This document shows, piece after piece, positions 6,811-17,521 of a stretch of 64,000 nucleotides of DNA. Numbering within the stretch: the first letter of the stretch is position 1; the number at the start of each line of letters is the position of its first letter. The translations under genes and the position numbers were made by a program. Source of the stretch: Bacillus sp. SKDU12. GTDB lineage: Bacteria > Bacillota > Bacilli > Bacillales > Bacillaceae. The notes beneath the pieces are model-generated. The model saw only the letters and a program-made list of their open reading frames with translations, was not told where the DNA came from and ran no database searches. The stretch covers positions 248,001 to 312,000 of the forward strand of contig NZ_MSRC01000007.1 of assembly GCF_010093085.1 (NCBI RefSeq). Direction: 5' to 3'.

Positions 6811-7042
6811 ATGACAGCAAGGGGAGAGACCTGGCCGAAAACCTCGGGATACAGGCGCCGAAGGAGCAAACTGTGAAAGTGAATCTCTCAGGCAAAAGAA
6901 CTCTTGCTCGACGCAACTCTGGAGAGTGTTTGCGGGTATGCAAGCCACCAAAGGGGACGTCTTTGTGTATGCAAAGTAAACTTTCAGGTGCCAGGACAGA
7001 GAACCTTCATTTTACATGAGGTGTTTCTCTGTCCTTTTTTGT
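6811..7042 (+). ncRNA. Tandem glycine riboswitch of the gcv operon
   Basis: Two consecutive glycine aptamers precede gcvT. The first includes GGGGAGAGACCTGG, CGCCGAAGGAGCAA and AATCTCTCAGGCAAAAG. The second includes GGAGAGTG, CCACCAAAGGGGA and AACTTTCAGGTGCCAGGAC. The expression platform is the hairpin AGGACAGAGAA (6993) with TTTCTCTGTCCT (7024), followed by a T run at about 7035-7040. In B. subtilis glycine binding prevents this terminator and turns on glycine cleavage genes; the layout here is the same. Confidence 0.95.
6993..7042 (+). terminator. Riboswitch-controlled intrinsic terminator
   Basis: The stem AGGACAGAGAA pairs with TTTCTCTGTCCT across about 20 bases and is followed by TTTTTT. 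The left arm directly continues the end of the second glycine aptamer, as expected for a glycine-dependent antiterminator switch. Confidence 0.85.
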
Positions 7043-9547: not shown

Positions 9548-11006
9548 CCAAGATCAGGCACTTATTTTTGAGCTTTCCAGAGAAGGCCGTATCGGCTACA
9601 GTCTGCCGGAGCTCGATGTACCGGAAATCGAATTGGAGGATCTATTGACAGACACCTATATTCGTGACGAGGATGCAGAGCTCCCGGAGGTGTCTGAGCT
9701 GGATATTATGCGCCATTATACAGCGCTGTCCAAACGTAATCACGGGGTGGATTCCGGCTTTTACCCGCTCGGTTCCTGCACCATGAAATACAATCCGAAA
9801 CTAAATGAAAAAATCGCACGAATTCCCGGATTTGCGGCGATTCATCCTTTACAAGATGAGGAAACGGTGCAAGGCGCTTTAGAGCTTTTGTATGATTTAA
9901 GCAAGCACCTTGAGGAAATGACAGGCATGGATGAGGTCACGCTTCAGCCCGCTGCCGGAGCGCACGGCGAATGGACTGGACTGATGATGATCCGCGCCTA
10001 TCATGAAGCGCGCGGCGATTTCAAGCGGACGAAGGTCATTGTTCCTGATTCTGCGCACGGGACGAATCCTGCTTCAGCGACAGTAGCAGGCTTTGAAACC
10101 ATAATGGTGAAATCAAATGAAAATGGGCTTGTCGATCTGGAGGATTTAAAAAGAGCAGTGAATGAAGAAACTGCGGCTCTTATGCTGACGAATCCGAATA
10201 CGCTCGGCTTGTTTGAGGAACAGATCACCGAGATGGCGGATATTGTTCACCAAGCGGGAGGGAAGCTGTACTATGACGGCGCGAATTTAAATGCCGTTTT
10301 AAGCAAAGCTAGACCGGGAGATATGGGTTTTGATGTAGTGCATCTTAACTTGCATAAAACATTCACTGGTCCTCATGGAGGCGGAGGTCCGGGTTCTGGC
10401 CCTGTCGGCGTCAAAAAAGACATGATTCCTTATTTGCCAAAACCAGTTTTAATCAAAAAAGAAGGGCGCTTTACATTTGATGATGACCGCCCTCATTCGA
10501 TCGGCCGCGTGAAGCCATATTACGGGAACTTCGGCATCAATGTCAGAGCGTATGCATACATCCGCTCCATGGGGCCTGACGGGTTAAAGGCTGTTACTGA
10601 GAACGCAGTGTTAAATGCCAACTATATGATGAGAAAGCTTGCGCCTTATTACGATCTTCCGTATGACCGCCATTGTAAGCATGAATTTGTATTGTCAGGG
10701 AAGCGGCAGAAAAAGCTGGGAGTGCGGACGCTCGATATTGCTAAACGGCTGCTGGATTTTGGCTATCATCCGCCTACAATATATTTCCCGCTAAATGTTG
10801 AAGAATGCATCATGATTGAGCCGACTGAGACGGAATCAAAGGAAACGCTGGACGCGTTTATCGACGCTATGATTCAAATTGCAAGTGAAGCGGAGGAGAC
10901 GCCGGAGCTCGTTCAGGAGGCACCGCATACAACGATAGTAAAAAGAATGGATGAGACAAAAGCAGCGAGACATCCAGTGCTCAGGTATGAGATGCAAAAA
11001 AGATAA
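9540..11006 (+). CDS. gcvPB: GcvPB, glycine dehydrogenase (decarboxylating) subunit 2
   Basis: GcvPB (488 residues) carries the PLP-binding Lys at residue 273 in [20 protein letters not shown]. It completes the split P protein with GcvPA. Start ATG 9540 lies within the last codons of gcvPA with GGGGATCG upstream, which points to translational coupling. Other family marks are [14 protein letters not shown] and [13 protein letters not shown]. It is the last gene of the riboswitch operon. The downstream gap of about 100 bp leads to the first inverted terminator copy. Confidence 0.95.
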
Positions 11007-11112
11007 ATATACACAGCTTTCTTAATAGATGATGGGTTCAAATCATTAATATTGACTGTCAAAGTGTTTTTTATATGTCTGCGTCTGTTTTGCAGCATCA
11101 TTCGTGAGCATT

Positions 11113-11157
11113 AAAAAATCCTTCTTTCGTTCAATGAGAACGTTTGAAGGATTTTTT
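11113..11157. repeat. Left 45-bp terminator-type inverted repeat flanking the ntd cassette
   Basis: This 45-bp element has a 12-bp outer stem (AAAAAATCCTTC with GAAGGATTTTTT), an inner stem CGTTC/GAACG and the loop AATGA. It can terminate gcvPB transcription. Its exact reverse complement stands at 17085-17129, so the two copies form perfect inverted repeats around the ntdR-ntdABC-glcP cassette. Confidence 0.9.
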
Positions 11158-11259
11158 GATTATGCGGCCACTCTAGCCGAAGCGAAACTGTTTAAGCAGA
11201 TCCAGCTTGATGCATTTTCGTCATCTTTTAATTTGCTAAAGCAATACCTGAATTCTTAA
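11134..11259 (+). other. Possible gene remnant, 41 codons, no recognised family
   Basis: An open frame starts with an ATG inside the loop of the left terminator and encodes MRTFEGFFDYAATLAEAKLF followed by 21 more residues, ending LKQYLNS. There is no ribosome site. The first nine residues are just the terminator arm, but the rest reads like the C-terminal end of a helical protein, so it may be the tail of a gene truncated when the cassette was joined here. It could also be chance. Confidence 0.3.
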
Positions 11260-11313
11260 CGCATTCATAAATGGTTCCAATGCCTTTTTATATTCTAAAG
11301 TGGCCCTTAAGAA

Positions 11314-11448
11314 ATGTGGAAAAAGAGGGATGTTATTAGATTTGAAATGATACAACCAGAAGACGAAATGAAAGACGAAGAAATCAGACCACTTATGAGA
11401 ATTCCGAAATACAGCTTCCTGATTGAAAAGAGAAGTGAACATCTATAG
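11314..11448 (+). other. Possible gene remnant, 44 codons, no recognised family
   Basis: The frame begins MWKKRDVIRFEMIQPEDEM and ends PKYSFLIEKRSEHL, with a coding-like mix of charged and hydrophobic residues. A stop codon lies two codons before the ATG and no clear ribosome site is present, so it looks like the end of a degraded gene. It stops exactly where the convergent ntdR ends. An overlapping minus-strand frame (11236-11442) is Phe-rich and looks less like a protein. Between 11007 and 11448 I see only this, the frame at 11134 and the terminator. Confidence 0.3.
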
Positions 11449-12438
11449 TTAAGTTGATTCTCTGATAATAAGTTTCGTTGGCAGTTTAATAATTCTTCTG
11501 TTTAAAGCAGTGTTGTCCGAAATATTCTCGATGATTTTCAACACAGCCTGTTGACCTAATTCTATGATGGGAATATCAATCGTTGTTATAGTCGGAGTAA
11601 CTGCTTGGCAAATCAGTTGGTTGTCAAAACCAATGACAGCTAAGTCTTCTGGAACACGAAAGCCATTTGTTATCGCCTGTTTAATCATCCCTGCGGCGAC
11701 TTGATCATTTCCTGTAAATATGGCTGAGGGTCTGTCCTTTAAATCTTTTATCTTATTAAAAACACGAAAGCCATCCTCGATATTAAACAATTCGCCGAAT
11801 ATCCATTCGTTTTTATGATGTAAATTGTAATCTTGCAGCGCTTTCAAGTAACCCTCTTTCCTCTGACGTTGAGCTTCGCTATAAGGCGTATCAAAACAAA
11901 ATCCAATTTTTGTATGTCCTCTTTCGATTAAATGTACAACCCCTGCGTATGCGGCTTCAAATTCATCATACCCAATGATCGTGATGTCCGCTGAGTGATG
12001 ATATTCATTACATAATAGGATAGGCCCATACTTTAAGAAAGGAGCTATCTTATCCCATTCGTTTTCTAAAGTTCCAAGAATAATACCATCAACTTCCTTG
12101 TGTTTCAATAACTCTAATTGATCTAGCTCTGTCTGTCGGTCATAAAAGGTCTGAAAAACAATGACCTTGTAATTCTTAGAAAGGGCTTCATGGGAAACTC
12201 CTTTTATCAATTGAGTGAAAAATGGATGGTCGATACTTGGAACTGATAAAGCTATCGTTTGTGTCTTATTTCTCCTGAAATTCCGTGCTAAATAATTAGG
12301 AGTGTAGTCAAGTTCGTTAATCGTCTTTAAGATCATATCTCTTTTTTCTTTCGATACATAAGGATGATTATTCAATACTCTTGATACTGTTGTTTTAGAC
12401 ACTTTGCACAATTTTGCTATTTCATCAATTGTAGGCAT
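11449..12438 (-). CDS. ntdR: NtdR, LacI/GalR-family regulator of the ntd operon
   Basis: NtdR (329 residues) begins with a LacI-type helix-turn-helix and hinge (MPTIDEIAKLCKVSKTTVSR, then NNHPYVS), followed by a periplasmic-binding-protein-like ligand domain (GFDNQLICQAVTPTITTIDIP). In B. subtilis it mediates the autoinducing response of ntdABC to neotrehalosadiamine. It is divergent from ntdA across a 103-bp gap that holds a TTGACA promoter and a LacI/cre-type palindrome. Codon use is AT-richer than in the flanking gcv and yqh genes. Confidence 0.9.
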   Translation of the reverse strand: MPTIDEIAKLCKVSKTTVSRVLNNHPYVSKEKRDMILKTINELDYTPNYLARNFRRNKTQTIALSVPSIDHPFFTQLIKGVSHEALSKNYKVIVFQTFYDRQTELDQLELLKHKEVDGIILGTLENEWDKIAPFLKYGPILLCNEYHHSADITIIGYDEFEAAYAGVVHLIERGHTKIGFCFDTPYSEAQRQRKEGYLKALQDYNLHHKNEWIFGELFNIEDGFRVFNKIKDLKDRPSAIFTGNDQVAAGMIKQAITNGFRVPEDLAVIGFDNQLICQAVTPTITTIDIPIIELGQQAVLKIIENISDNTALNRRIIKLPTKLIIREST

Positions 12439-12462
12439 ATTTTCCCTTCCTTAAAAAAGTTA

Positions 12463-12493
12463 TTGACATGTTATCGGTTTCAGAAATTAGGAT
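12463..12493 (+). promoter_or_regulatory. Likely sigma-A promoter of ntdABC
   Basis: TTGACA at 12463-12468 and TAGGAT at 12488-12493 are separated by 19 bp, 48 bp before the ntdA start. The long spacer and poor -10 suggest a promoter needing an activator. The palindrome at 12469-12482 fills most of the spacer. Confidence 0.6.
12469..12482. promoter_or_regulatory. LacI-family (NtdR or CcpA) operator in the ntdA promoter
   Basis: TGTTATCGGTTTCA fits the relaxed cre pattern TGWNANCGNTNWCA and has the central CG typical of LacI-family operators. It sits between the -35 and -10 boxes of ntdA. Because ntdR is adjacent and of the same protein family as CcpA, either protein could be the ligand. Confidence 0.6.
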
Positions 12494-12541
12494 AAATTTG
12501 TAACAAATTTTTTGAATCACAAATTAATGGAGGTACTGTTC

Positions 12542-13867
12542 ATGCAAAAACAGGTTAAGGTTACAGGTAAAAGTCAAGAAAACATGTTACTGCTGAAACA
12601 CTTAAAAGGTGCCGCGCAAGGAAAAGAACTTGTTATTGAAGACAGTATTGCAAACGACCGATGGAGACAAGTATTAAAAGAAAATACAGATATTGAAAAA
12701 GATCTTTTCAACTATCAAAAAAATCGTGAAATAAGTAAAGTCCCTTTTATGCCTGTAGATCGGTTAATAACCAATGATGAAGTGGATGATATCTTAAATA
12801 CGTTAACTAAAGTGTTGCCGACTGGAAAATTTACGAGTGGTCCCTATTTAAATCAATTTGAAAAAACTTTATCTACATATTTACATAAAAGGTATGTAAT
12901 TGCAACTAGCAGCGGAACGGATGCTATTATGATAGGATTATTAGCTTTAGGGTTAAAGCCGGGGGATGAAGTTATCATGCCGGCTAATAGCTTTTCGGCT
13001 ACTGAAAATGCTGTGTTAGCTGTGGGAGGCGTCCCTGTCTATGTAGATATTAACCCGCAAACATTCTGCATCGATCCTGACAAAATTGAGGGAGCTATAA
13101 CTTCTCATACAAAATTTATTCTGCCTGTACATTTATATGGAAAACATTCCGAAATGAAGCCTATTCGTCAAATAGCAAATCATTATAATTTGAAAGTCAT
13201 TGATGATGCTTGCCAAGGAATTGGATTGACAGACTTAGGAAAGTATGCAGATGTAACGACATTAAGCTTTAATCCATACAAGAATTTTGGTGTATGTGGC
13301 AAAGCTGGGGCGATAGCAACTGATAATGAAGAACTCGCTAAAAAATGCATTCAATTTAGTTATCATGGTTTTGAAGTAAATGAGAAAAATAAAAAAACCA
13401 TCAATTTTGGATTTAATTCAAAAATGGACAATTTACAGGCAGCAATTGGTTTAGAGAGAATGAAGTATCTTTCATTAAACAATTTCAAAAGACTCTTTTT
13501 GGCGGATAGATACATTACTCAATTAGCAGAATTACAGAATAAAGGCTTTATTGAATTGCCAGAATTAAGTGAAGATCATGTGTGGCATCTGTTTCCTATT
13601 AAGGTAAGAGCAGAAGATAGAACAGATATCATGACGAAATTAAGTGAAGATTATGGTGTTCAAACAGATATATATTACCCAATACTGTCTCATATGCAAA
13701 AAACGCCTTTAGTACAGGACAAGTATGCAAAACTCCAATTGATTCATACGGAAAAGGCTCATAGTCAGGTGCTGCATTTGCCTTTATATCCGTCATTTAC
13801 GTTAGAAGAACAGGACAGAGTAATGGAGGGACTGTTTGATGTTATTAAGCAAGAAATTGGAGTATAA
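12542..13867 (+). CDS. ntdA: NtdA, 3-oxo-glucose-6-phosphate aminotransferase
   Basis: NtdA (441 residues) is a PLP aminotransferase of the DegT/DnrJ/EryC1 (sugar aminotransferase) family. It converts 3-oxo-D-glucose 6-phosphate to kanosamine 6-phosphate with glutamate as donor. The PLP Lys is in LSFNPYKNFGVCGKAG. ATSSGTDAIMIGL forms the phosphate-binding region and VIDDACQGIG carries the cofactor Asp. ATG 12542 follows TGGAGGT; the frame extends 10 codons further upstream. The last 29 bp overlap ntdB, so the two are coupled. Confidence 0.92.
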   Translation: MQKQVKVTGKSQENMLLLKHLKGAAQGKELVIEDSIANDRWRQVLKENTDIEKDLFNYQKNREISKVPFMPVDRLITNDEVDDILNTLTKVLPTGKFTSGPYLNQFEKTLSTYLHKRYVIATSSGTDAIMIGLLALGLKPGDEVIMPANSFSATENAVLAVGGVPVYVDINPQTFCIDPDKIEGAITSHTKFILPVHLYGKHSEMKPIRQIANHYNLKVIDDACQGIGLTDLGKYADVTTLSFNPYKNFGVCGKAGAIATDNEELAKKCIQFSYHGFEVNEKNKKTINFGFNSKMDNLQAAIGLERMKYLSLNNFKRLFLADRYITQLAELQNKGFIELPELSEDHVWHLFPIKVRAEDRTDIMTKLSEDYGVQTDIYYPILSHMQKTPLVQDKYAKLQLIHTEKAHSQVLHLPLYPSFTLEEQDRVMEGLFDVIKQEIGV

Positions 13868-14687
13868 AACGTTACCCACGGTCGAGCATCCTAAGTATAT
13901 TGTTTTTTGTGATTTTGATGAAACATATTTTCCGCATACAATCGATGAACAGAAGCAAGAAGATATATATGAACTCGAAGACTATCTAGAACAAAAAAGC
14001 AAAGACGGGGAACTGCTGATCGGATGGGTTACCGGGAGCAGTATAGAGTCTGTTCTTGACAAAATGGGACAGGGTAAATTCAGATATTTCCCCCATTTTA
14101 TAGCTAGTGATCTTGGAACAGAAATTACGTACTTTTCAGAGCATAACTTCGGACAGCAGGATCATGAGTGGAACAGTCGTATAAATGAAGAGTTTAGTAA
14201 AAAAAAGATTGACATAATTGTGAAACAATTACACGAAAGTCATAACATTTCTTTGGATCCTCAAACGCAATTAGGAAAGTCACGGTATAAGCATAATTTT
14301 TATTATCAGGAACAAGATGAAATAAACGATAAGAAAAACCTGTTAGCAATTGAAAAGATCTGCGAGGAATACGGAGTTTCAGTTAATATCAATCGATGCA
14401 ATCCCTTAGCTGGTGATCCAGAGGGCAGCTATGATGTGGATTTTATACCCATGGGAACAGGAAAACACGAAATTGTAAAGTTTATGTTAGAGAAACACAA
14501 CCTACATGCCGAAAAAGCGATCGCATTTGGAGATAGCGGTAATGATGTTCGTATGTTACAGGCAGTAGGGAATGGATACCTTCTAAAGAATGCGACACAA
14601 GAAGCCAAAAACTTGCACCACCTTATATCTAATAGTGAGTACTCAAAAGGGATTACGAATACTTTGAAAAAATTAATTGGATCATGA
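13839..14687 (+). CDS. ntdB: NtdB, kanosamine-6-phosphate phosphatase (HAD/Cof family)
   Basis: NtdB (282 residues) is a HAD-superfamily phosphatase that releases kanosamine from its 6-phosphate. HAD motif I is VFCDFDETYFP (nucleophile and acid Asp), motif II is the Thr/Ser region GWVTGSS, and motif IV is IAFGDSGNDVRML. ATG 13839 is preceded by GGAGGGACTGTTTG inside the ntdA 3' end; the codon before it is a TTG in the same frame. It is the second step-specific gene of the operon. Confidence 0.92.
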   Translation: MLLSKKLEYKTLPTVEHPKYIVFCDFDETYFPHTIDEQKQEDIYELEDYLEQKSKDGELLIGWVTGSSIESVLDKMGQGKFRYFPHFIASDLGTEITYFSEHNFGQQDHEWNSRINEEFSKKKIDIIVKQLHESHNISLDPQTQLGKSRYKHNFYYQEQDEINDKKNLLAIEKICEEYGVSVNINRCNPLAGDPEGSYDVDFIPMGTGKHEIVKFMLEKHNLHAEKAIAFGDSGNDVRMLQAVGNGYLLKNATQEAKNLHHLISNSEYSKGITNTLKKLIGS

Positions 14688-14700
14688 GGAGGAAATAGAT

Positions 14701-15741
14701 ATGAAGAAGATTGGGATCATAGGTGCAGGCGGTATTGCCAGAGCGCATGCTACAGCTTTATCTACAATAAAAAATGCAGAGTTAGCAGGGGTGTATGACA
14801 TAAGTCAACAACATGCGAAAAGCTTTGTTAAAACGTTCGGCGGGAAGGTATATGAAAGTGCAGATGAACTCATTGATGATTCAGAAGGTTTGATTGTAGC
14901 ATCTCCAAACTTTTGCCATAAAGAACATGCCTTGCAAGCATTAGCAAAACACAAGCATGTGCTGTGTGAAAAGCCTATGGCGATTTCTCTTGAAGAAGCA
15001 AGCATAATGAAAGATACAGCTGAAAGGTTAGACGTAAGGGCTTGCATGGGATTTAATTATAGATATTTGCCTTACGTAAATATCTTAAAAAGCTTAATTA
15101 TCAATCATGAACTAGGTAACATACTGTCCATAAAAGTACACTTTAAGAAAAATAGTGCAATTAGACGTAAGAATTTTACTTGGAGAGATGACGCTAATAG
15201 TAAGAAGACTAGCGGTTCATTGGGAGATCTCGGTATCCACCTTATCGACATGGTATGGTATTTGTTTGAGAGTGATTTTATCCCAGAATCAGTAAGGGCA
15301 AAGATGAACACAAATGTAAAAACAAAAGAGGAAAAACAGGTACTTGTAGATGACTATGCAGAAATTTATGGTCAACTGAAGAACAAGGTATTTGTAAATA
15401 TTATCACATCAAAAAGTTCTGTGCCTGAAGACTGTGGTTTTAGTATCGAGGTAGTTGGACACAAAAAAGAGTTTAAATACCACACAGGTAATCCTCATGT
15501 TTACCAGCTCATAGATGGCTTAAGCGCGGTAGATTGTCCAGTACCGCAAAGCCTGTTAAACGATCCGCCAAACGAATTTTATGGGTGGGCTGATTCTTTT
15601 AGAAGTGAGTTAGTTAATTGGATTGAATCAACTCAGAAAGATTGGGTGGAGATCCCATCTTTTAACGATGGATTTAGATCTCAGGAAGTATTAGAAATGT
15701 TCTTTGAGAAAGACAGCAACCTTCAAAAAATGTCTGTTTAG
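14701..15741 (+). CDS. ntdC: NtdC, NAD-dependent glucose-6-phosphate 3-dehydrogenase
   Basis: NtdC (346 residues) belongs to the Gfo/Idh/MocA oxidoreductases. It oxidises glucose 6-phosphate at C3, the first reaction of the pathway. The N-terminal Rossmann motif is IGIIGAGGIARAHA, and the catalytic Lys lies in LCEKPMAI, with the downstream GDLGIHLIDMVW segment typical of the family. GAGGAGG precedes ATG 14701. It is a few residues shorter than I recall for 168 NtdC (350). A terminator follows before glcP. Confidence 0.9.
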   Translation: MKKIGIIGAGGIARAHATALSTIKNAELAGVYDISQQHAKSFVKTFGGKVYESADELIDDSEGLIVASPNFCHKEHALQALAKHKHVLCEKPMAISLEEASIMKDTAERLDVRACMGFNYRYLPYVNILKSLIINHELGNILSIKVHFKKNSAIRRKNFTWRDDANSKKTSGSLGDLGIHLIDMVWYLFESDFIPESVRAKMNTNVKTKEEKQVLVDDYAEIYGQLKNKVFVNIITSKSSVPEDCGFSIEVVGHKKEFKYHTGNPHVYQLIDGLSAVDCPVPQSLLNDPPNEFYGWADSFRSELVNWIESTQKDWVEIPSFNDGFRSQEVLEMFFEKDSNLQKMSV

Positions 15742-15771
15742 CAGCCAATTCATTCGAAGAGGCAAGTTACT

Positions 15772-15802
15772 AAAAAAGCAGGAATTTATTTTCCTGCTTT
15801 TT
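15772..15802 (+). terminator. Terminator between ntdC and glcP
   Basis: The perfect stem AAGCAGGAA/TTCCTGCTT has a TTTATT loop and is followed by a T run. It separates ntdABC from glcP. No obvious promoter is seen in the 79-bp gap, so glcP may depend on read-through. Confidence 0.8.
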
Positions 15803-15820
15803 CATCTAGGGGTGTATTGA

Positions 15821-17026
15821 ATGATAAGAGGAACATATTTATTTGGCTATGCTTTCTTTTTTACAGTAGGCATTATCCATATATCAACAGGGAGTTTGAC
15901 ACCATTTCTATTAGAATCTTTTTATAAGACAACAGATGATATTTCAGTCATCATTTTCTTTCAGTTTACGGGATTCCTAAGCGGAGTATTAATCGCACCG
16001 TTAATGATTAAGAAATACAGTCACTTTAGGACACTTACTTTAGCTTTGACAATCATGCTCGCGGCGTTAAGCATCTTTTTTCTCACTAAGGATTGGTACT
16101 ATATTGTGGTCATGGCTTTTCTCTTAGGGTATGGAGCAGGTACGTTGGAAACGACAGTTGGTTCCTTTGTGATTGCTAATTTCACAAGTAATGCAGAAAA
16201 AATGAGTAAGTTGGAGGTCCTCTTCGGAGTAGGCGCTTTATCTTTTCCATTATTCGTTAATTCCTTCATCAATATCGATAACTGGTATGTACCGTATTAC
16301 TGCATATTCACCTTTTTGTTCGTCCTATTAGCAGGATGGTTCCTTTTCTTATCCAAGAATCGCAAGTACGCTAAAAATGCTAACCAGCAAGTATCATTGC
16401 CAGACACAGGGGCCTTTCAATATTTTATTGGAGACAGAAAAAAATCAAAGCAGTTAGGCTTTTTTGTGTTTTTCGCTTTCCTATATGCAGGGATAGAAAC
16501 AAATTTCGCCAACTTTCTACCTTCCATCATGATCAACCAAGACAATGAACAAATTAGCCTTATAAGTGTCTCCTTCTTCTGGGTAGGGATCATCATAGGA
16601 AGAATACTGATTGGTGTAGTAAGCAGAAAGTTGGATTTTTCCAAGTACCTCCTATTTAGTTGTAGTAGTTTAATTGTTTTGTTAATCGCTTTCTCTTATT
16701 TAAGTAACCCAATCCTTCAATTGGGCGGTACATTTTTGATTGGCTTAAGCATAGCGGGCATATTTCCGATTGCTTTAACACTGGCCTCAATCATTATTCA
16801 GAAGTACGTTGACGAAGTTACAAGTTTATTTATTGCTTCGGCAAGTTTCGGGGGAGCGATCATCTCTTTCTTAATTGGATGGAGTTTAAATCAAGATACG
16901 ATCTTATTAACCATGGGAATCTTTACAACGATGGCGGTCATTCTAGTAGGTATATCTGTAAAGATTAGAAGAACGAAAACAGAAAAACCTATTTCACTTG
17001 AAAGCAAAGTTTCAAAAACACAGTAA
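15821..17026 (+). CDS. glcP: GlcP, glucose/mannose:proton symporter (MFS)
   Basis: GlcP (401 residues) is a major-facilitator transporter for glucose and mannose. About 12 hydrophobic segments are visible, with a longer charged loop (LSKNRKYAKNANQQVS) between the sixth and seventh. It begins MIRGTYLFGYAFFFTVGIIH behind AGGGGTG. It follows ntdC and its terminator, the same order as in 168, where uptake of glucose by GlcP is linked to neotrehalosadiamine production. A charged tail (KIRRTKTEKPISLESKVSKTQ) closes the protein. Confidence 0.9.
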   Translation: MIRGTYLFGYAFFFTVGIIHISTGSLTPFLLESFYKTTDDISVIIFFQFTGFLSGVLIAPLMIKKYSHFRTLTLALTIMLAALSIFFLTKDWYYIVVMAFLLGYGAGTLETTVGSFVIANFTSNAEKMSKLEVLFGVGALSFPLFVNSFINIDNWYVPYYCIFTFLFVLLAGWFLFLSKNRKYAKNANQQVSLPDTGAFQYFIGDRKKSKQLGFFVFFAFLYAGIETNFANFLPSIMINQDNEQISLISVSFFWVGIIIGRILIGVVSRKLDFSKYLLFSCSSLIVLLIAFSYLSNPILQLGGTFLIGLSIAGIFPIALTLASIIIQKYVDEVTSLFIASASFGGAIISFLIGWSLNQDTILLTMGIFTTMAVILVGISVKIRRTKTEKPISLESKVSKTQ

Positions 17027-17084
17027 AAAACGTGTGAATGAAAGATAGACCTCTCAGGCTGTCGAGTGAAAAAAGCATGTGACA

Positions 17085-17129
17085 AAAAAATCCTTCAAAC
17101 GTTCTCATTGAACGAAAGAAGGATTTTTT
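17085..17129. repeat. Right 45-bp terminator-type inverted repeat flanking the ntd cassette
   Basis: Exact reverse complement of 11113-11157, loop TCATT. It lies 11 bp beyond the stop codon of yqhL (minus strand) and 58 bp beyond the glcP stop, so it can end both transcripts. Its close fit to yqhL suggests that this is the native copy. Confidence 0.9.
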
Positions 17130-17140
17130 TATGTTTTGCT

Positions 17141-17521
17141 TTAGTTCTTTGCTTTAATTTTTCCGCCCCATTTTTTAAAGCCGCCTTTTAGGTTGTAAAT
17201 CTCAGTGCAGCCGTTTTTGCGCAAGGTTTGTGCCGCGCGTCCGCTGCGGACACTGTTTTGGCAGTACAGATAGACAGGCTTGTCCGGACGGATTTCATTT
17301 TTTCTCTGTTTCAGCTGGGAAAGAGGGATGTTGCGGGCGCCTAAAATATGTCCGCCATCAAACTCATTCGGTTCACGAACGTCAATGAGCTGCGCTTTGC
17401 GGTAACCCGCGCGAAATTCTTCTTCCGTAAGTGTTTTCATAATTCGCTGCTGATAGACATATGAAGCAATCATATAAACGAGAAACGCAGCAAAAATAAT
17501 CAATATGATCATATTAGACAA
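17141..17521 (-). CDS. yqhL: YqhL, membrane-anchored rhodanese-like protein
   Basis: A 126-residue protein with one N-terminal membrane helix (MIILIIFAAFLVYMIASYVY) followed by a cytosolic rhodanese domain. The family loop is LIDVREPNEFDGGHILGARN, and the candidate active site Cys is in VYLYCQNSVRSGRAA. The family handles sulfur transfer from thiosulfate or persulfides; the substrate here is unknown. It is convergent with glcP. The start codon follows GGAGTAGAATCAC. Confidence 0.9.
   Translation of the reverse strand: MSNMIILIIFAAFLVYMIASYVYQQRIMKTLTEEEFRAGYRKAQLIDVREPNEFDGGHILGARNIPLSQLKQRKNEIRPDKPVYLYCQNSVRSGRAAQTLRKNGCTEIYNLKGGFKKWGGKIKAKN

Follow-up and report, generated by a model that had tools for sequence, protein, structure and literature searches.

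Terminator hairpins around the ntd cassette of Bacillus sp. SKDU12 as probable relics of an ICEBs1-family element

The locus between gcvPB and yqhL

The present analysis concerns a 64,000-nt stretch of Bacillus sp. SKDU12 DNA (contig NZ_MSRC01000007.1, positions 248,001 to 312,000), hereafter the window, in which two 45-bp hairpins enclose a cassette of ntd genes between the convergent genes gcvPB and yqhL. Between the hairpins, ntdR lies on the minus strand and ntdABC-glcP on the plus strand; the protein families come from a family search. The sequences next to the hairpins point to an element of the same family as the integrative and conjugative element (ICE) ICEBs1. The comparisons use one genome per species, designated by G numbers, with G000 being the genome of the window; G012 (B. 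spizizenii TU-B-10), G007 (B. tequilensis KCTC 13622), G023 (B. mojavensis RO-H-1), and G015 (B. halotolerans ATCC 25096) were identified by matching ntd-locus coordinates. The features that bear on the origin of the hairpins are, in window positions:

11003..11018, no strand: remains of the left half of the older gcvPB-yqhL terminator, degraded and read by eye; more legible in G010, which has kept both halves
11025..11112, plus strand: "A-end", the putative outer end, proximal to the attachment (att) site, of an ICEBs1-family element; match of the R1 model to G000:C25:259025-259112, E 5.7e-16
11113..11157, no strand: left hairpin, predicted two-way phr terminator (A-tract and T-tract); from repeat search, folding, copy alignment, and genome pattern search
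11160..11183, minus strand: scrap of a phr C-terminus, ASARVAA*; relatives end in SDRAA (G015) and SDRVAA (pVTX9_1)
11205..11301, minus strand: two scraps, probably of rap and ordered as in the gene: Rap 210-226 (11251-11301), then Rap 246-258 (11205-11243)
17085..17129, no strand: right hairpin, with neither phr nor an A-end recognizable beside it; at this place G010 still has traces of both

An earlier note on this DNA described 11113-11157 and 17085-17129 as exact reverse complements, each a strong hairpin, with the right copy 11 bp from the yqhL stop, and all of this is borne out. The 45-bp copies agree by string equality; when extended, the inverted arms reach 49 nt at 98% and are separated by 5,927 nt. 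Each copy folds into a 15-pair outer stem, a 3/3 internal loop, a 5-pair inner stem, and a 5-nt loop, with energies of -23.1 and -23.0 kcal/mol, and 0 of 200 shuffled sequences were as stable. The right hairpin ends at 17129 and the yqhL stop lies at 17141. Both hairpins are flanked by A- and T-tracts and combine a stable stem-loop with a T-tract, as an intrinsic terminator does, which makes each a strong candidate for a terminator acting on both strands. Among 16 aligned hairpin copies, 20 columns are invariant, nearly all of them within the stem and tracts. This fits retention of the hairpin, but the alignment contains too little flanking sequence to serve as a test of selection.

The two copies are identical in G000 and differ at 5 of 45 positions in G010, and the identity in G000 may reflect either conversion or constraint. 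Recent exchange or conversion in G000 would also fit a cassette that inverts like a switch through recombination between the 45-bp repeats, and the earlier note had suggested that the cassette may flip. Such a switch is highly unlikely, as the cassette has the same orientation in both of the genomes that carry it (only two are available) and the open reading frame (ORF) lists of the insert contain no recombinase-like ORF.

An older terminator split by the insertion

The gcvPB-yqhL region was examined at 30 loci, giving 22 readable gaps, two loci with the cassette (G000 and G010), and six with neither; the gap starts are approximate, and 14 of the 44 genomes with yqhL lie outside this survey. 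The 45-bp hairpin of the window is the AAAAAATCCTTC hairpin, and that of the older gap is the CAGCTGTC hairpin. The earlier note considered the right copy to be native, which the comparison contradicts: the 45-bp hairpin is missing from 22 of 22 readable gaps, and all nine close relatives that were read (G004, G005, G007, G012, G015, G020, G023, G024, and G065) carry a different hairpin there, CAGCTGTC..GACAGCTG. Because no gap has a copy and the nine relatives share another terminator, neither of the window hairpins is native. The older gap spans about 45 bp in several relatives and is mostly terminator.

Only one further genome with ntd genes at gcvPB-yqhL was found, G010; there the left flank ends with AACAGCTGC and the right flank resumes with GGCAGCTGTTT, which are the two halves of the older terminator on either side of the insert. 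The left half has decayed in the window, and the right half is not recognizable. Judging from these flanks, the ntd cassette is seated inside the older CAGCTGTC..GACAGCTG terminator, which was split by the insertion. The proposal of the earlier note that a terminator hairpin was the landing site is therefore kept in part: the terminator that was hit is the CAGCTGTC..GACAGCTG one, not the 45-bp one.

As one of two possibilities, the same note had the target duplicated in inverted orientation, such that a yqhL terminator was copied upon insertion. The two perfect inverted copies at the ends of the cassette are what this would produce, but their absence from the readable gaps and the element sequence attached to the hairpin elsewhere render it extremely improbable; the 45-bp hairpins came with the inserted DNA and occur at other loci. 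Of 44 Bacillus genomes, 8 match the hairpin pattern, at 14 places in total, and the reversed control pattern has no match; by position all 14 belong to three loci, namely gcvPB-yqhL, yrhD, and yhc. With the 91 bp around the left copy as the query, matches were obtained in 9 of 61 genomes, including its own; one of these, in G059, covers the flank alone and looks like chance. The earlier note had held that its reading would fall if the identical copies were a common dispersed repeat. The hairpin is indeed present at four places in its own genome, but only the window pair is identical. The 190-bp repeat family of B. subtilis 168 was set aside as a source of the hairpin, because G004, which we take to be that strain, has no match to the hairpin or the A-end.

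Traces of rap, phr, and the element end

The aligned hairpin copies have a conserved stretch of about 100 bases, the A-end, on one side and a coding tail on the other. By eye, phr traces adjoin the hairpin in 12 of 15 loci, no phr being visible at L002, L004, and L012, which include the right copy of the window. In G015, phr is intact (39 residues) and overlaps a Rap-like C-terminus, and the hairpin then follows. The same order is retained on the minus strand of the window, where Rap 210-226 is followed by Rap 246-258, the phr tail, and the hairpin. The rap scraps were obtained from a search of 292 bp only, with E values of 4.9e-5 and 0.022 and a best score of 25.8 bits, compared to at most 21.2 bits in 200 shuffles. 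Since the wider search at E 0.01 lists no match in the window insert, the rap and phr scraps are probable rather than certain. The right copy of G010 keeps an 18-residue phr match (67%) along with part of the A-end.

An intact counterpart is provided by pVTX9_1 (NZ_CP074686.1), a 20-kb circle of B. velezensis with integrase, ImmA-type, and conjugation genes. Its inferred attP is bordered on one side by rap and phr, both intact, and by a hairpin of this type, and on the other by the A-end, which adjoins int. The A-end of G015 matches pVTX9_1 at 79% over 112 bp, and the right end of the yhc insert of G015 matches the other end of pVTX9_1 (the B-end) at 77% over 97 bp. The element end next to att is thus found in the window as the A-end at 11025-11112, common to the relatives and pVTX9_1. 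The R1 model of the A-end was built from ten sequences, that of the window among them, with strict search filters that weak A-ends may escape; a match in G014 (E 0.009) appears to lie within a coding region and was dropped. It should be mentioned that PLSDB types pVTX9_1 (L168) as a non-mobilizable plasmid, while its gene content is that of a circular ICEBs1-family element.

The rap-phr pair of the relics and pVTX9_1 is related to RapI and PhrI of ICEBs1. Pfam and NCBIfam returned no family for the two Phr peptides; the silence of NCBIfam says little, because ICEBs1 PhrI has no family there either (PhrI was outside the Pfam scan). The element gave no match in phage records and a single match in plasmid records, which is pVTX9_1, and among viral contigs three integrases matched at 25-27%. 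Two further observations concern the genomes that carry the cassette. G000 contains another ICEBs1-like integrase with an internal stop (G000:C10:116064-116993, L195), and in G010 a rap-phr pair and an open ICEBs1-like integrase lie about 22 kb apart (G010:C1:2979801-3002798, L171), perhaps within a whole element.

Other split terminators

Of 15 genomes, 9 have an intact terminator hairpin downstream of yrhD and 6 an interrupted one. For the hairpin downstream of a yhcN-adjacent gene (the yhc site) the corresponding numbers are 6 and 7, with 2 of the 15 replaced or altered, and at nagR the terminator is intact in 8 of 10 matched genomes (12 searched) and occupied in 2. One nagR site, that of G011, appears occupied by eye within 190 bp; that of G030 holds a decayed element with a partial integrase, a broken rap, phr, and a lipoprotein (YddJ-like) that is 91% identical to that of pVTX9_1. 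The terminator core is found on both sides of the insert, as expected of attL and attR, in G015 (yhc), G020 (yrhD), and G030 (nagR). Of the two replaced or altered yhc sites, that of G013 retains nothing but a hairpin of the 45-bp kind. At the other, in G018 (L118), an A-end scrap and half a hairpin were seen by eye beside a quite different terminator.

The yrhD and yhc inserts are about 1.5-4.3 kb long. Translated searches (tblastn) show that the yrhD inserts of G005 and G020 end in tails of the YddJ-like lipoprotein and that the yhc insert of G024 contains a scrap of a lytic transglycosylase (CwlT-like). The cargo varies: a cation efflux protein with a flavoprotein (czcD and czcO), an FMN-binding protein with an acetyltransferase (paiB and paiA), a PadR-like regulator next to a DUF2812 protein, an acetyltransferase accompanied by a regulator of the Xre type, or an LXG toxin; the family scan covered the cargo proteins other than paiA, PadR, and the second acetyltransferase. 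The LXG-domain toxin gene lies at L146:3950-5602 (minus strand) in the yhc insert of G015, and a similar fragment is seen by eye in that of G007.

Some of these host terminators contain a 5-7-5 repeat, TAATC-CAAGATG-GATTA at yhc in G012 and CAATC-CGTCATG-GATTG at nagR in G030. According to PMC3715440, attB of ICEBs1 is a 17-bp stem-loop with 5-bp repeats and a 7-bp spacer. The likeness is suggestive, because the 5-7-5 arrangement is not present in every relative; the loop lengths vary, and that at yhc in G004, for example, has 4 nt.

Probable origin of the hairpins and the proposed landing step

We consider it likely, with a probability of about 0.8, that the 45-bp hairpins are phr terminators left as relics by ICEBs1-family elements and that the insertion split an older terminator. 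This account builds on the split terminator at gcvPB-yqhL, on pVTX9_1, which has the hairpin together with phr, rap, and the A-end, and on the same anatomy at the other split terminators. Elements of the ICEBs1 family, relatives of pVTX9_1, would have landed inside intrinsic terminators between convergent genes; the short inverted repeat and spacer that serve ICEBs1 as attB resemble a terminator hairpin. Landing would split the host terminator and trap the element, which would then decay, the series running from pVTX9_1 through G015 and the left copy of the window to its right copy and G013. The two-way phr terminator would be kept, presumably because the host's own terminator was broken, and would now end gcvPB from the left and yqhL from the right; the hairpins are in this sense probably replacement terminators for the neighboring genes. 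The interior DNA would be exchangeable cargo, here the ntd genes. We infer integrase action at terminator sites, retention by selection, and the cargo role of ntd, and we are less sure of the target preference and of the route of ntd than of the origin of the hairpins.

A number of observations weigh against this account. In tblastn searches of all inserts, that of the window has no match to ICE proteins at E 0.01, its rap scrap coming from the narrow search alone, and the integrase of pVTX9_1 is unmatched in all 15 inserts at gcv, yrhD, and yhc. Conjugation genes are likewise not found in the window insert at E 0.01, and scraps of them occur in other inserts. Because the integrase and conjugation genes are lacking, the window insert is described as carrying ICE relics and is not filed as an ICE. 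An ImmA-type match in the G010 insert (35% over 52 residues, E 0.001, antisense in the ntd genes) was taken as chance. The phr gene stands beside the A-end in the gcv, yrhD, and yhc relics and beside the other end in pVTX9_1 and G030. At gcvPB-yqhL, the same end (A-end and phr) occurs on both sides in inverted orientation, which the account does not explain; the site also has no repeated core, being decayed, and no B-end. Moreover, G000 and G010 retain the yrhD hairpin halves in a badly decayed state, and the sites form a biased sample, having been found through the hairpin and the A-end.

Concerning the landing step alone, the elements might land anywhere, with insertions between convergent genes surviving as the least harmful ones. 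All four sites do lie between convergent genes, as judged from the ORFs or stop codons beside the gaps, and such gaps are largely terminator, as is the older gcv gap, which also counts against a preference for terminators. The laboratory secondary sites of ICEBs1 fall in genes or intergenic regions, according to PMC3715440. On the other hand, the hairpin core on both sides of the three inserts named above speaks against indiscriminate landing, and four terminator sites out of four would be very unlikely under uniform landing and have a probability of about 0.005 within non-coding DNA, a rough value from a crude finder. That finder, a permissive and imperfect one that fails to detect the 45-bp stem in full and includes doubtful hairpins, assigns about 2.8% of the window to terminator-like hairpins; about 10% of the window is non-coding. 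Survival of indiscriminate insertions is thus a serious possibility, somewhat short of even. We attach a similarly tentative weight to the general proposal that a branch of ICEBs1-family integrases takes intrinsic-terminator hairpins as a class of attachment sites. Landing would then break the host terminator and bring in the two-way phr terminator, with decay leaving a swapped terminator (the hairpin alone, as seen at yqhL in the window and at yhc in G013) and a cargo slot.

Comparison with known systems

The relics resemble ICEBs1 in having traces of a pair of the RapI-PhrI family (PhrI from L170) and in the right end at yrhD, which matches the YddJ tail in DNA. They differ in that another hairpin follows phrI, the 45-bp pattern is absent from G004, and the ends of ICEBs1 do not match the A-end. 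The stem-loop form of its attB is a further likeness, but ICEBs1 sits in a tRNA-Leu gene (PMC3715440). The circle of pVTX9_1 unites the A-end, hairpin, phr, rap, and integrase, the difference being that pVTX9_1 is a 20-kb element with its genes and with phr beside the B-end instead of the A-end. The study of Menard and Grossman 2013 (PMC3715440) describes secondary ICEBs1 insertions at diverse sites related to the stem-loop, with excision reduced or undetectable at the tested ones and with induction harming the host; these are laboratory insertions, and a word count of the text searched gives no occurrence of "terminator". The arrangement of cargo between inverted end elements also recalls a composite transposon, but here the ends are gene terminators and the insert has no extra ORF of transposase size (from the ORF lists only, as no transposase family search was made).

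A literature search over titles and abstract openings, with most subscription papers outside it, returned neither ICEBs1-family relics in terminators nor this arrangement of ntd. If the account is correct, mobile elements trapped in terminators may replace host terminators and leave slots whose cargo, such as an antibiotic cluster, metal efflux genes, or an interbacterial toxin, passes between Bacillus species. This would offer a route for terminator turnover and for the relocation of biosynthetic clusters such as ntd, would bear on why the ntd cluster has two positions within the B. subtilis group, and would give the secondary sites of ICEBs1 known from the laboratory a parallel in nature.

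Evolutionary history of the cassette and remaining features

The remaining features of the locus are:

11335..17047, no strand: ntd segment with short flanks, a homologue of the ntd locus that related species have beside yhjN
11449..12438, minus strand: ntdR, LacI-type regulator (ORF and family search)
12542..13867, plus strand: ntdA, aminotransferase (ORF, homology, and family search)
13836..14687, plus strand: ntdB, HAD-type phosphatase (ORF limits and family search)
14701..15741, plus strand: ntdC, oxidoreductase of the inositol dehydrogenase type (ORF and family search)
15821..17026, plus strand: glcP, weak match to MFS transporters (ORF and family search)
17141..17521, minus strand: yqhL, flanking gene convergent with gcvPB (ORF)

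The ntd segment matches four named genomes at 90-92% over about 5.6 kb, with 11335-11439 at about 70% and in two of them. Seven other genomes of the group have ntd beside yhjN, and the yhj place of G000 and G010 is without ntd; the stretches read there do not present the yhj place as a split terminator. A tree of a 6.4-kb core joins G010 with G020 (1.00), whereas the ntd tree joins G010 with G000 (1.00), with G020 next (0.998), and the gcv site of G020 is empty. The trees were built from 2 to 6.4 kb, and the placement of G000 is weakly supported. Since the ntd allele is discordant with the species tree, recombination probably passed or lost it, and the event is old, given a divergence of about 9% between the ntd genes of G000 and those of G010.

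This history also bears on how the cargo arrived. The ntd genes might have come by homologous recombination with the rap-phr relics or the flanking genes during natural transformation, a route that would concern the cargo step only. It agrees with the variation of cargo at one site between species, with the conflict between the trees, with the empty gcv site of G020, and with the lack of ntd at the yhj place of G000 and G010. Five element queries are, however, unmatched in the ntd loci L021-L028 (about 20 kb each), so that no donor with ready-made ends is known. We rate this route slightly below an even chance. One of these loci, L026 of Priestia endophytica, holds an ntd-like cluster outside the genus, with 73-78% DNA identity in three aligned pieces.

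A search of 16 sources with Rfam gave a sole match at the gathering threshold, a glycine riboswitch (RF00504, 73 bits) at window positions 6811-6913 on the plus strand, upstream of the gcv genes.

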